A DNA stretch of 64,000 bases, taken from assembly GCA_963924555.1 (NCBI GenBank), contig OZ004586.1:4608501-4672500 (forward strand), given 5' to 3'. Below, piece after piece: positions 57,501 through 63,733 of this stretch (position 1 is the stretch's first letter; each line of letters starts with the position of its first letter). The notes under the pieces are model-generated. The model saw nothing but the letters and a program-made list of their open reading frames with translations, did no database searches and was not told the DNA's origin. Source of the stretch: Crambe crambe. Its lineage: Eukaryota > Porifera > Demospongiae > Poecilosclerida > Crambeidae. The translations under genes were made by a program, and so were the position numbers.

Positions 57501-57780
57501 TCAAGTTTGAATAAGCCGCAGGAGCACAAACAGGTAGGAGTGAAATAAAAATGAGAAAACTGCCCCCGTCAGGTGGGTGTGGTGGAAAACAGTGCAATGA
57601 TAGGTGCAAGGTCCAGGAAGGGTCTTTTCGATATCTTCCTTGGTCATCTCTTGTCCTTGGATGTGTTCATTCACATAGGGTAGTAGACTCGCATAGGCTG
57701 CATGGGATGCTGCCAAAACACAGGTCTGGTCATTTCTTTGAATAGTGACTGTATTGCCTTGGTACCTCTTTGGCCAAAGT
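57501..57780 (-). CDS. Unrecognised frame near the right TIR
   Basis: The minus frame is open from about 57780 to 57501 and reads RNDQTCVLAASHAAYASLLP then NEHIQGQEMTKEDIEKTLPG and a hydrophobic tail. No family recognised. It may be the last exon or a remnant of a gene of the 6970 bp element, lying 20-300 bp inside its right TIR. The start was not defined. Confidence 0.25.
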
Positions 57781-57800
57781 CCAGGGCTGTGTCCCAGATC

Positions 57801-57894
57801 TTTGCAATCAAGCGCGCATGCGCATTTTTGACTTCGTGCGCAAAAGTTTATCGTGGTCCGGTGGTCCGGTCCGGTCCGTGTTTTAGTCAGACCC
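57801..57894 (-). repeat. Right terminal inverted repeat of the 6970 bp element
   Basis: Exact reverse complement of 50925-51018. Confidence 0.9.
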
Positions 57895-57902
57895 CGCGAA
57901 TC

Positions 57903-58012
57903 TCCTCCTCGCGTTTAGCCGTCTCTTCCTCACGTCGTCGGCGTTCTTCGCGAATCTCCTCCTCGCGTTTAGCATTTTCCTCTTCTCTGAGCCTGCGTTG
58001 TTCAGCTAGCTA
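57903..58012 (-). pseudogene. gag: gag N-terminal coiled-coil, displaced part
   Basis: Continuation of the gag frame that is cut at 50924. It reads LAEQRRLREEENAKREEEIR and then the same REERRRREEETAKREEE unit as on the other side. It proves that the 6970 bp element inserted into this gag. The sequence ends at the left terminus of the next transposon; the expected 5' gag and LTR are not found beyond that transposon's far end. Confidence 0.85.
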
Positions 58013-58171
58013 TGGTGGCTTTTTAGGGCCACTTCCTTCAATTCCAGTTCCACTCTACTGCCACTCTACTTCCACTCTGTCATAGCAATTTCCACTCTAC
58101 TTCCACTCTGTCATGCCGATTTACACTCTACTTCCACTCCAATTCCACTCTATTTCCACTCTGCTTCCACT
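58013..58171 (+). repeat. Left TIR of the 5327 bp transposon
   Basis: Identical to the reverse complement of 63181-63339, with repeated TTCCACTCTACTTCCACTCT units. Confidence 0.9.
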
Positions 58172-58427
58172 CTATTGTGCATGCGCAAAAACTCGTACAC
58201 GTGGACATTTCTTGATGGCTGAAGTCTTGATGGCTGAAGAGAGAGGGACCAAAACTACTTCTAAACGAGAAGAAGGTTGGTTAATATGTAGTCCTCTTCT
58301 TTCTTTTTTACTGCTAGCTCTATTTTAGCCTTAGCTAATTATATGCGGATTGCAAGGCAGAAAAAGAAACTACCCAACTGCAGCAATGAACCTGACCCAT
58401 TACAGGGACAAATGCTTGTAAGTTAAA

Positions 58428-61371
58428 ATGGAGCTGCTTAAGCCAAATAGCTACCCATCTATGCAGATCAGTATTGGAAGGATGGAGTATGATTTTGAGA
58501 AGATGAGAGGTATTATGGATAGATCATTTGCATCCATCAAAATTGCCTTCCACAAAGATAGCGCTTCTTTGGACGTGCTCAACAAGTGCTGTGAAACTGT
58601 TTGGGGCAGTAAAAAAAGGAACTATGAGTATTTTTTAGCCGATGGATCTGGCATAGAAATTGATTCCTGCTCATTTGACCTCAATTTGCCAGATGGTTCT
58701 AAGGAAACCTTGCCTTGGACTTTGAGTAACTACCTCAGAGTTTCAAATGTGAAATATCCCTCTCGTGTACGTTTGTATTGTGTGAGGAAGCTTCGTACTG
58801 GTATGTCAGCTTTAAACAAGTAATACATTTTAGCTATATATTTATAATAATAAACAGGGAAAGGATCAGATCAAAAAAAAATCATCGAAAAAAAAAGTTG
58901 CTGATGCAGGTAATATTAAATACATACAATGAGTCATGGCTGATAATTATAATCACAATAGTACAAAGAAAGAGGTCGGCTGAAGAAGTAAATGAACCAG
59001 GTTGGAATATAGCTAGCAACTATTATTGACATAGTTTTAGTAGTGTACATAAATAGCACAAAAAAGATGTTCTACGAACTCTCAACAGACCCCACCTGGT
59101 TATTTTGAAGTAACTTTTGTGACCAAAAAGAAGAGTCTGTATCGTGATGTCTATGTATTTTCATGTGGAATGACACAACAAACTGTTTTGTCCAATCATT
59201 ATGATGATGACATTGAAAGGATGATGGAGGTTCGTGATTATATTGAGGAGTCACCTGATGATCTGCATCTCTTTGAAGATAATCCTCTGGAAAGTGACTC
59301 TTTCTTGTATGAAATAGACACTGGTGAAAGTAAGTGGCCTCATGATCATTCCCATCCAGCTGTATTATGTAAACTCCTGTATACAGAAGTATTTTCATTC
59401 ATTGATGATATGGATTCTAACAGTGGTGAAGTGAAATATGTTACTCCTAATGCAGGTAACTAAGTATACCATTTCTGTGATAAAGTGCATGATAGAATAA
59501 TTATTCCTACTAGAATCAGAATTTGATGTATGGAGTGGATGCTATGCTATATCCAGAGTAGCACTCCTGGCCTGCATTGCTTTGAATGGCTATCACGGGA
59601 TAGCTACCTATGGTTGGCAATGCAATAGTTCACCATTATCGAATGTTACACCCCTTCAGTACTGTTCTGCTGCTGGTACATATACGTGCACTGTGTCATG
59701 TGCAGAATTCATAACTGCTCGTCAATTTATAGTTGAAGGTAATGGGCCTAGAGCAAGCTTGATAGTATAATGCAATTCTTACACTGTACTATTGTTTTCA
59801 CAGGTGCAGAACATAAATTTACAGCAAAGCTTAATGAAGGTGAACATATCCTGTTACCTGTATTGTAGCATTCTATTCCCTATAGAAACATTATAATAAA
59901 TTGCAATGCCACACCCTCTTTCCCTTCCTGTTTCTGTGATTCCAAGCTGCGAGCAAACGACTAACAAATGAACTAACAAAAACAACTTCAAGCCTTTTCC
60001 CCCCTAATAATCATGCTTTCTCTATAGAGATGTTATAGTGTACCACTTCCTCCAACTACCCAGACCAGTAGTTATCACTACACAGTATTGAACTCTTTTT
60101 GAAGTCTTAACTGCCAAACCACAGTTATAATTAGTTATTACAACATTGCTGGTAATGGGGAAAATTATGTGCCTGTCACAATTATTATTATCATCATTGA
60201 CAACAGACTGTACAACCCGAAATGAGCCAGATGGCGTGCAATCTGAAGTGGAGGTCATAGGAGATGATATATTGACAAAGTCTGCATCTGCCACCAAAGA
60301 TAGCAAGTATGTGGCAGCAGAGGATTTTGCTCACATTATTGAGTCTTGTAAGAGTGAGTTATAGTATTCTTTTATGGCAATATTAATAACCCATTTATAA
60401 ACAGATCCAATGGGTATAAAGTTAATAGAATTGGTAGGAGGAGGAGCATTTGGGCAGGTATATAAGGCAGTTTGGAGGGGAAGTGTTGTTGCTGCTAAGG
60501 TTCTTCATGGAAACATGAAAGTTATTGAGAATGAATTGAATGTGTACAGGTAAATCTCATGTTTTCCACAAAATGAATGAATCCTAATGAATGTGTAACT
60601 ATAATAATGAATGATTTATAGAACATAACACCATCCAAATGTATTGACATTTATGGGGATGGTTGAAGAGCCAGGAAAAGTCATACTGATTACAAACTTT
60701 ATAGCAGGACTGAATTTATTTGACTTAATGCATTCAGATAAGAAGGTGAACAAAATTTTCAGCTAGCTAGCTATAGCTAGCACTTATGGTAATCACACTG
60801 ACAATTATTTTTGTTTCAGATTGTACTTGACTTCAAAGAAAAGATATTTATCGTTCAGCAAATTGCCCAAGCTTTGGTATTTATGCACACATATGATCCA
60901 CCTATTGTTCATCTCGACCTCAAGCCGGAGAATATACTTGTAGGCTGCTAGATTATTTTACATACTCACCATCATTATAATTAACAGGTTGAATTAGTTA
61001 CATATCGTGTATCTGTTGCTGATTTTGGACTAAGCAAAATCATTCCCACACTAGGAGCTGGCCGTACCACAATGCAGGCTGGAACACCTGCATTTCAGCC
61101 TCCAGAGCAGTTGAGAGGAGAACTCTGTGGTGTCGGAAGCGATGTATATGCTTTGGGATGCATAATTACAGAAGTATTCGGAGAGAAGTAAATTTGGAAT
61201 GGTTTAGCACCACATACGATCATTTTGAAAGTTGCAGGGGGCTCGTATCCTGACATATCTCATCTTTCTCCTGGAGTGAAGGAAATAGTGCAGATATGCT
61301 TTGTTCCAGTAGAGCAAAGGGCATCTGCTGCAGATGTGTTGGGTGCAATCTGCAATAGCCTTCTAGATTAA
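58428..61371 (+). pseudogene. Kinase with Ig-like and novel N-terminal domain, stops in frame
   Basis: Exons: 58428-58800, 58858-58909, 58962-59000, 59089-59455, 59514-59738, 59804-59839, 60207-60353, 60405-60549, 60622-60745, 60820-60939, 60988-61371; about 670 codons. Exon 1 encodes an unassigned domain (YEYFLADGSGIEIDSCSFDL, LPWTLSNYLRVSNVKYPSRV). Exon 5 is Ig-like (YGWQCNSS, YCSAAGTYTCTVSC). Exons 8-11 are a protein kinase nearest the TKL/RIPK style: GGGAFGQVYKAVW, VAAKVL (Lys), VHLDLKPEN (His-Leu-Asp where HRD is usual), VADFGLSK and GTPAFQPPEQL. Lesions: TAA at 60626-60628 where THHPNVL needs a Leu, TAA at 61189-61191 before IWNGLAPH, an extra A in the A-run of exon 2, and a phase clash at exon 4. 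Start 58428 has a good context (AAAATGG). Confidence 0.75.
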
Positions 61372-61486
61372 CTATTATTCATTTCATACCAGTGGTTCAT
61401 CATACTAGCTAGCTATAGCTATTGAATTGATCTCAGATTCATTGTTCATTCTTATCTCAGATTCATACATGTTTGTTATTTATGGT

Positions 61487-63147
61487 TCATTGTACCATGG
61501 AATTAATGTTATTCAGCAAATCAAAATACAATTCTAATGCTTCTGTTGGAGTTTCCGGCAGATGAAGGTCTTCTTCTTCCATAATAATGTGTGCCAAATT
61601 AGTAAATTCTCTACTAGTAGGTGGTAGCTTTTCACAGGCATATTGCCAACACAACTGTAAGTCACCATCAGTACATTCACAAGAATGGTCTTCATGACCT
61701 ATTATACATAAAAATATTTAGTGAATTACATTATCATTGTGTTAGCTAACCTCTAATTTCAGGCAGATAAAAAAGCTCATCTGGGATTCCATCAACACAA
61801 GTACTGGTGTTATGCCTAATTCGGTGCATGTTCCAAGCAGTCACCATTTTGTCCAGATCAGCCTGGATTAGATTGGTGAAGGCAAATTTCAGGCAATCCC
61901 TACATGAAGTTGATGCATCATAGTCACTTCATGTTTTAGCAAAATATCCTTACCTCTGGGTGGAGTCTGAATCATCATAGTAACCTTCATCTCGAAGCAT
62001 CTACAATATTCTTACTATTGTCATTTATAACAGTACTTTATTACTAAGTTTCACCTTAAAGAAGCGAATCCAGAATCCAGTACACCACTGATAAAGATGC
62101 CCCCACCAACGTTCAATTCTCTGATAAGAAATGCGATTAGCTAGTTAGTCTAAACTTCTCTGATAATTCTCACTTGATTACTGACTGATCTCCCATAGCG
62201 AAATGAATTTCGAGCGAAGTCATCACTACACTGATGCCTCAAGAAAGGTTGCATAAATGCAATTTTTGCATTTTCTGTGCCCCTGTCTGCACGAACAACT
62301 TTAGGACAACCTATTTGCATGTGATTAATTATTGATTATAAACTATAGATATTGAGTAGCTAAGAGTATTCTTACCATACTTCTTGACAGCATCCAGATA
62401 GAAGCCAGCAATGACTTTTGAATCTTTGTTTGTAGGGCATACTTCCAACCATAAAATTTTGCGGGAATATCTATTATGAAACACAAAATTAATGTACATA
62501 CATGCATCCATGTAATTAATTACCCATCAATTCCTCCATGAATAGCAAAGTCAAAAGGTAGCAACTTGTCATTGCCATCTATGTGCCAGCAATAGTTAGG
62601 GCCCTATCAACACCATAATAATATTATTATCAAGCTGTACACTAAGTTAGGGGTTATCCACCTTGGATGAGTAAACTCTCCTTTTTAATCTATTTTTCTT
62701 TCTAGAATTTACACCTTCGGGATCAATATAAGAAAGCATTATTCGAACTTCTTCTCTACAAGAGGAGTTGATATTGAACCAATAGAGCTTAGTTATTGCA
62801 GAGTTAACCTTGATATACTCAGTTTGTATCTCTGCTGTAGTCGAAAGTGCATGGCACGATATCCTAATGATGAGCCAGACTGGGAGAGTTCAAACTACAG
62901 AAATAGCTAAATAGGTGACTGTCCAGCTAGCTAAAACTTTGATATAATGTACCTGTACGTTTTGAAAGGCCCTTGCAATATCTGTTTGTACACCTCTCCT
63001 TCTGAGACCCATTATATGCAAAGTACGTTTTAAAGTTCTCAGTGATACAATGATCCCATGAAGACTAGCCAGAAAGCATAATATCAGGTTATAAGAGTAC
63101 CCTGCTTCAAAATACAGCCTAACTAAACTTCTTGCATCATCATCCAT
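61487..63147 (-). CDS. Integrase-core (IS3-like eukaryotic) transposase, ten exons
   Basis: Exons, 5' to 3': 62953-63147, 62809-62894, 62662-62755, 62524-62603, 62376-62470, 62174-62310, 62055-62120, 61954-62000, 61751-61899, 61487-61698. All joins are GT-AG and in phase; 386 residues, no stop. The N-terminal part is a helix-turn-helix (YSYNLILCFLASLHGIIVSL, RTLKRTLHIMGLRRRGVQ). The core has NYCWHIDGNDKL (Asp), ILWLEVCPTNKDSKVI, VVRADRGTEN (Asp) and SNQRIERWWGHL (Glu), a DDE triad with 39 residues between the second Asp and Glu. This fits the animal integrase-core family that resembles bacterial IS3 transposases. It lies 34 bp from the right TIR and is most likely the enzyme that moves the 5327 bp element. 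Confidence 0.85.
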
Positions 63148-63180
63148 TCTTCAACTCTTAAATTAGCTAATCAGGAACAA

Positions 63181-63339
63181 AGTGGAAGCAGAGTGGAAAT
63201 AGAGTGGAATTGGAGTGGAAGTAGAGTGTAAATCGGCATGACAGAGTGGAAGTAGAGTGGAAATTGCTATGACAGAGTGGAAGTAGAGTGGCAGTAGAGT
63301 GGAACTGGAATTGAAGGAAGTGGCCCTAAAAAGCCACCA
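63181..63339 (-). repeat. Right TIR of the 5327 bp transposon
   Basis: Exact reverse complement of 58013-58171. Its inner edge is 34 bp upstream of the transposase start codon, so it probably carries the transposase promoter. Confidence 0.9.
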
Positions 63340-63341
63340 TA

Positions 63342-63733
63342 TATATGTTGTGTGTGCATATCATATACATAAAAATGGATCCATAGAGTGTTTGAAGTAT
63401 TCAAGCAATAGAAATGGTTTGAACTGATGCACATGAAATAATATGGAAAATTAATTACGCGATGACGTCACACCGGAAGTTGAATGAGCGATTCCGGAAG
63501 TGTCACTATCTTTAAAAGGTAGGGAATTAAGTTACCATTGTGTTTGTACTGCCTACATAATTCCTCAGTAAAATATTATGCCTTGAAGTACATAGTGTAG
63601 CTACAATAAGGACTATCATTTTCAAGAAAGAAGCTTGGTCATTTCACACTCTATTGCATGTAGAAGTTCACAATTGCAGCATGTAGCTAGCATGCTCTAT
63701 TCAACAAATGGCCCACCCTCCAATATAGCTAAC
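63342..63733. other. Flank of the transposon
   Basis: No gag or LTR sequence of the Gmr1-like element was seen here, although the other flank of the 5327 bp element is gag. No gene was recognised. Confidence 0.5.

Follow-up and report, generated by a model that had tools for sequence, protein, structure and literature searches.

A sponge transposon of the IS3EU type carries a gene set of two convergent genes, an rva_4 transposase of a cut-and-paste kind and a tyrosine kinase-like (TKL-like) protein kinase with an N-terminal half of its own, and we think that the kinase probably serves the element's own transposition. The element occupies positions 58011-63341 of the window, a 64,000-nucleotide stretch of the Crambe crambe genome (assembly GCA_963924555.1, contig OZ004586.1, positions 4,608,501 to 4,672,500, forward strand). 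Long terminal inverted repeats (TIRs) surround the two genes, which lie tail to tail with their stop codons 115 bp apart, kinase on the plus strand and transposase on the minus; no third gene was seen in the element. A search of the genome with the TIR finds both 159-bp arms matching one query at 100%, the identity that a sequence-only reading of the window had reported, and the repeats can be extended to 166 nt at 99% identity. Coordinates are collected in Table 1.

That same reading had proposed joint movement of kinase and element. The genome searched comprises 143 Mb in 119 contigs (here C1, C3 and so on, with C9 the window's), and copy counts from it are lower bounds. The window's family, S1, has at least 5 two-ended copies and 1 truncated copy at different sites, diverging by 0.19-0.87%, and the kinase is present in all six. 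Four of the five copies with two ends lie between perfect 6-bp target-site duplications (TSDs), namely CTGTTG, CTAGAT, GTGTAG and CTTTGG. The fifth is the window copy, with perfect termini, GCTAGC to its left (58005-58010) and TATATG to its right (63342-63347); recombination between copies or a later change in the flank could account for this. If two TIR copies merely happened to lie around a host kinase gene and a transposase, the want of a duplication at the window copy would be natural, but chance pairing is refuted by the four further two-ended copies elsewhere, all with TSDs, and by the truncated sixth, and we give it a negligible probability.

The repeat that hosts the C3 copy also occurs uninterrupted in the window at 57502-57894, providing a paralogous empty site with a single CTTTGG. 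With the kinase in six of six copies, four TSDs and this one empty site, movement of the kinase with the element is well supported, and the window's family has been mobile recently. This genome yielded no instance of the opposite case, full-length family copies lacking the kinase together with a fixed host locus for it. A TIR-only derivative of 186 bp lies at C1:4616625-4616810 within the duplication CTTAAT. Segmental duplication as the origin of the copies was rejected on comparison of 1 kb of flank on each side (659 bp for the window's right flank): the C12a and C15 left flanks have a common repeat ending 12-45 bp before the element, their right flanks have a 43-bp match at 81% and nothing more, and the reversed match between the C3 flanks and the left flank of the window copy comes from the target repeat.

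The transposase of the window copy is open over ten exons with AG/GT splice sites, and 34 bp separate its ATG from the right arm of 159 bp, so the intact ten-exon integrase-type gene described from the sequence was borne out. Pfam matches it to rva_4 (PF24764, integrase core domain) at E = 3.2e-43, and DDE positions can be assigned. It is open in four of the six S1 copies (C9, C12a, C12b and C15), truncated in C17, and broken in C3 by a 1,226-bp insert. That insert sits in exon 2, has inverted ends AGTGATACCGG..CCGGTATCACT, and is probably another DNA transposon. Pack-type elements are non-autonomous gene-capture elements without a transposase of their own; we tried this class and rejected it, given the element's own transposase open in those four copies.

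The kinase gene runs from 58428 to 61371 in 12 candidate exons. Exon 2 appears optional: in the alignment of copies its length is a multiple of three only in C12a, skipping it keeps the reading frame, and two A-runs at 58872-58887 vary in length among most copies, possibly through slippage or as assembly noise. With the C15 copy as query, Pfam returns Pkinase at E = 2.6e-39 and no alpha-kinase match. What we take to be the G-loop, VAAK lysine, HLDLKPEN, DFG and PPE motifs are all present, and with them the catalytic Lys, HxD and DFG expected of a protein kinase. The best solved relatives are CTR1, TNNI3K and RAF, the top Protein Data Bank chain being CTR1 at 1.6e-35, and judged by best matches only the kinase resembles the TKL group. 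Compared with CTR1, TNNI3K, RAF and TAK1, the kinase domain is similar and the N-terminal region differs.

The sequence-only reading had described a full multi-exon kinase gene with an immunoglobulin (Ig)-like domain. The kinase domain stands; the Ig-like part, a residue pattern in exon 6 that is presumably of Ig type and was picked out by eye, is unconfirmed, with nothing in Pfam at E ≤ 1 and a single-sequence structure model of mixed helix and strand at low confidence (mean predicted local distance difference test score, pLDDT, 66.7). The exon structure also stands. Two premature stops in the window copy, at codons 438 and 585 when exon 2 is left out of the model, are absent from the other five copies, and "full kinase gene" therefore holds for structure and not for function. 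The other broken kinases have a stop (C12a), a frameshift (C12b), and a frameshift plus a stop (C17). Decay of copies once they have inserted is what a young transposon family shows, unlike genes kept by the host.

Three diverged families, S2, S3 and S5, have TIRs of their own, and in each of them sequence of the kinase lies tail to tail with sequence of the transposase. Identity to S1 over the kinase C-lobe is 61% for S2 (C12 copy), 56% for S3 and 42% for S5. The tally of 6-bp TSDs is four of five two-ended copies for S1, two of two for S2, one of one for S5, and none of one for each of S3 and S4. Because the same pair recurs in distant families, the kinase looks like a functioning component of the element rather than an accidental passenger. 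The C-lobes of S1 and S2 have a nonsynonymous divergence (dN) of 0.39-0.40 and a synonymous divergence (dS) of 2.2-2.7. Leaving insertions and deletions out of the counts, the S1 copies differ in the kinase by 12 nonsynonymous, 3 stop and 15 synonymous variants, a nonsynonymous-plus-stop to synonymous rate ratio of 0.28, and the variants common to at least two copies are 1 nonsynonymous and 5 synonymous. For the transposase there are 10 nonsynonymous, 2 stop and 8 synonymous variants, with a ratio of 0.40. On these small numbers, the two genes seem similarly constrained in the moving lineage.

Capture of genes by DNA transposons is well known, and a host kinase might have been picked up once and have hitchhiked since with no function for the element. 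Several observations fit such passive capture and weigh against a function in transposition. Among the S1 copies the kinase is broken in four of six, being open (exon 2 omitted) in C15 and C3, and both genes are open in C15 alone. A complete kinase gene was found in S1 and not in S2, S3 or S5: in the S2 copy at C5, kinase residues 14-75 run straight into residue 500 and beyond, those at C11 and C12 start at residue 426, S3 has a portion of exon 6 plus the C-lobe, and S5 has the kinase from exon 6 onwards with no match to exon 1. In a second S5 copy (C3:728856-730724) the C-lobe and most of the middle are unmatched; from this copy and the incomplete relatives it follows that an element can do without the kinase in cis. 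Nothing in 6.5-9.5 kb at three intronless rva_4 relatives of this genome matches the S1 kinase, and therefore the superfamily can move without one. The divergence estimates are themselves strained, dS between S1 and S2 being saturated and the NG86 method giving no dS for three of five S3 pairs. Against passive capture stand the same orientation in all four families, down to about 42% C-lobe identity, the retained catalytic motifs, a dN far under dS between families, and, among copies, a rate per site that is lower for amino-acid changes than for silent ones. We regard passive capture as improbable, though the most serious of the alternatives.

A third possibility is that the kinase is kept for the sponge, for instance in immune or stress signalling, as host-beneficial cargo of the kind known from Starship elements in fungi. 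The nearness of its kinase domain to the signalling kinases CTR1, TNNI3K, RAF and TAK1 would suit this. From 161 kinase matches in the genome, 18 stretches were taken as host genes; in the tree 15 of these split from all six element entries with an ultrafast bootstrap of 100, and they are 23-32% identical to S1 over the C-lobe. The other three (L049, L050 and L051) are placed among the element kinases, where support is low in places (22, 55) and leaves the branching order of the families unsettled. A genome search with the 387 N-terminal residues of the kinase gives 48 matches, each of them in an S1 copy, a related element or a fragment, and no host gene with this region. Four of the six copies carry lesions private to them, which show no host constraint on those insertions. 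We consider benefit to the host very unlikely, and action of the kinase on the element's own cycle is favoured over it. The suggestion, made from the sequence, that such elements could have seeded sponge kinase families is unsupported, with 15 host kinases apart and the N-terminal region matched only in elements and fragments. Kinase parts do occur apart from TIR and transposase in the fetched stretches, in three fragments (C3:2828582-2829522, C3:847653-848222 and C3:1707119-1708364) and a decayed relic (C6:2383562-2387598). For sponge gene lists there is a caution here, as some kinase genes may be transposon genes.

The convergent orientation in S1, S2, S3 and S5, with so little space between the stops in the window, also invites the idea that overlapping tail-to-tail transcripts regulate the transposase and that kinase activity is secondary. 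Coding constraint on the kinase would then be needless, and we find this idea barely credible. Returning to a kinase that serves transposition, the earlier suggestion that it protects or regulates the element is possible and is the reading we favour. Intact copies would supply the kinase in trans. By phosphorylating either the transposase itself or a host factor that acts in chromatin, repair or silencing, it would make transposition likelier or better timed. A direct effect on the activity or timing of the transposase is a tentative option about which we have more doubt than belief, and the countering of host silencing or repair is rather unlikely. If the reading is true, a transposon with a kinase as its second gene becomes a defined system for phosphorylation control of DNA transposition or of host silencing.

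Table 1. Features of the window element, its S1 copies and the related families (contig labels as in the text).
Feature	Position	Strand	Remarks
Left TIR	58011..58176	+	terminus TATGGTGGC; 166 nt 99%, 159-bp core 100%
Right TIR	63176..63341	-	terminus GCCACCATA; same repeat comparison and copy alignment
Kinase exon 1, N-terminal domain	58428..58800	+	no usable fold model (pLDDT 33.9)
Kinase exon 2, optional, A-rich	58858..58909	+	length varies from copy to copy; copy alignment
Kinase exons 3-5	58962-59000, 59057-59329, 59387-59455	+	AG/GT in 6/6 copies
Kinase exon 6	59514..59738	+	Ig-like by eye, unconfirmed
Kinase exons 7-8	59804-59839, 60207-60353	+	
Kinase exons 9-12, kinase domain	60405-60549, 60622-60745, 60820-60939, 60988-61371	+	holds the two premature stops
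DDE transposase, 386 aa	61487..63147	-	rva_4 3.2e-43; D134, D192, E232
Transposase exons 1-5	63147-62953, 62894-62809, 62755-62662, 62603-62524, 62470-62376	-	
Transposase exons 6-10	62310-62174, 62120-62055, 62000-61954, 61899-61751, 61698-61487	-	
Paralogous empty site for C3 copy	57502..57894	-	single CTTTGG; 379/413 aligned columns identical across junction
S1 copy, both ends	C9 (window), 58011-63341 of window		no target duplication
S1 copy, both ends	C12:2896470-2901811		
S1 copy, both ends	C12:6552622-6557949		
S1 copy, both ends	C15:4694513-4699836		
S1 copy, both ends	C3:7554696-7561266		TSD CTTTGG
S1 copy, truncated	C17:5313388-5317861		
S2 element	C5:8966005-8969383		TSD CAGTTA
S2 element	C11:5243566-5246638		TSD ATTAAT
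S2 element, third copy	C12		one end found
S5 element	C3:3007902-3011566		TSD GGATCC; terminus TACGGTGGC; 22/24 terminal bases match
S3 element	C5:8978032-8980817		TIRs match, no TSD

Two arrangements among the related families may be recorded here. At C5:8976200-8980817 (L029, L020) the S4 and S3 elements stand nearly end to end with different TIRs; upstream of the pair are kinase and transposase fragments of a further element, and an S2 copy is about 7 kb off. Pieces of the S2 TIR occur at C7:17300, C7:57256 and C7:97208, in steps of 39,956 and 39,952 bases, a spacing that suggests a 40-kb tandem unit.

A crude transposase tree, built from noisy tiled tblastn pieces, has one firm split, the kinase-bearing transposases from the three intronless ones (support 100), which is suggestive only and no demonstration that the kinase and transposase trees agree. 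One intronless rva_4 family (L026, C9:1573000-1579500, and L028, C9:1579501-1582500) has five copies at 97-99% and about 8.5 kb repeated; its right end was not reached, and short repeats in a long array make up its left part. A second gene there, head to head with the transposase, is HECT-like by eye, with no Pfam match in the open reading frame tested. Beyond this genome, a search of genome contigs gives four loci (L054-L057) that match the transposase, its only outside relatives, all in metagenome-assembled genomes (MAGs) of sponge symbionts and probably sponge DNA in bacterial MAGs; Pfam assigns rva_4 to L056, the one locus so examined, and the kinase gives no significant match (best E 0.22). 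At L056 (QPIL01000069.1, 3337-8231, from an Iophon symbiont MAG), the rva_4 gene faces a HECT-domain gene matched at 28.5 bits against a cut-off of 23.9. Sixty-two stretches in viral contigs fit a pattern, none of them a relative. What L056, and possibly L026, have in common with the kinase-bearing elements is a PF24764 transposase beside a gene for a signalling-type enzyme; they differ in a transposase that is intronless or intron-poor and in having HECT instead of a kinase, and no TAYGG-type TIR pair was found for either.

The IS3EU superfamily is described as having TA..TA termini, mostly 6-bp TSDs and an integrase-like DDE transposase (PMC10045372). The sponge element has all of these, with TATGG..CCATA fitting the IS3EU form TAYGG..CCRTA (one copy ends in CCGTA, and S5 has TACGG), 6-bp duplications, and the PF24764 transposase; its termini, duplication length and transposase type agree with IS3EU. 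To that description the sponge lineage adds an intron-rich transposase and a kinase gene, the word "kinase" being absent from the main text of that paper.

A closer parallel comes from fungi, where all TET+ IS3EU families are stated to have a gene for an alpha-kinase that runs opposite to the transposase (PMC12730594). Of the literature on alpha-kinase, transposase and DNA transposon together, this paper alone was found, and other IS3EU papers could mention a kinase. Common to the fungal and sponge elements are TAYGG..CCRTA termini, 6-bp TSDs, and a kinase and transposase in opposed orientation; the fungal elements have an alpha-kinase with a TET/JBP gene between, and the sponge element a TKL-like kinase. 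Since Pfam assigns the sponge kinase to the ordinary protein-kinase fold, it is not the same gene as the fungal alpha-kinase; the genome has 7 alpha-kinase matches, none near S1 copies or the transposase matches listed. As the two kinases are unrelated, the pairing of kinase and transposase may have arisen twice. We read this as IS3EU-like elements having a slot for a signalling enzyme, filled differently by lineage. A wider statement, to which we would give not quite an even chance, is that IS3EU-like transposons repeatedly and independently recruited such enzymes as a regular second gene (the fungal alpha-kinase and, in sponges, the TKL-like kinase and a HECT ligase) since their mechanism needs the transposase, or some host factor, to be controlled post-translationally, the S1 kinase then being a dedicated transposition kinase. 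Taken with the fungal elements, a kinase at work in sponge transposition would suggest two unrelated kinases recruited to one role in one superfamily.

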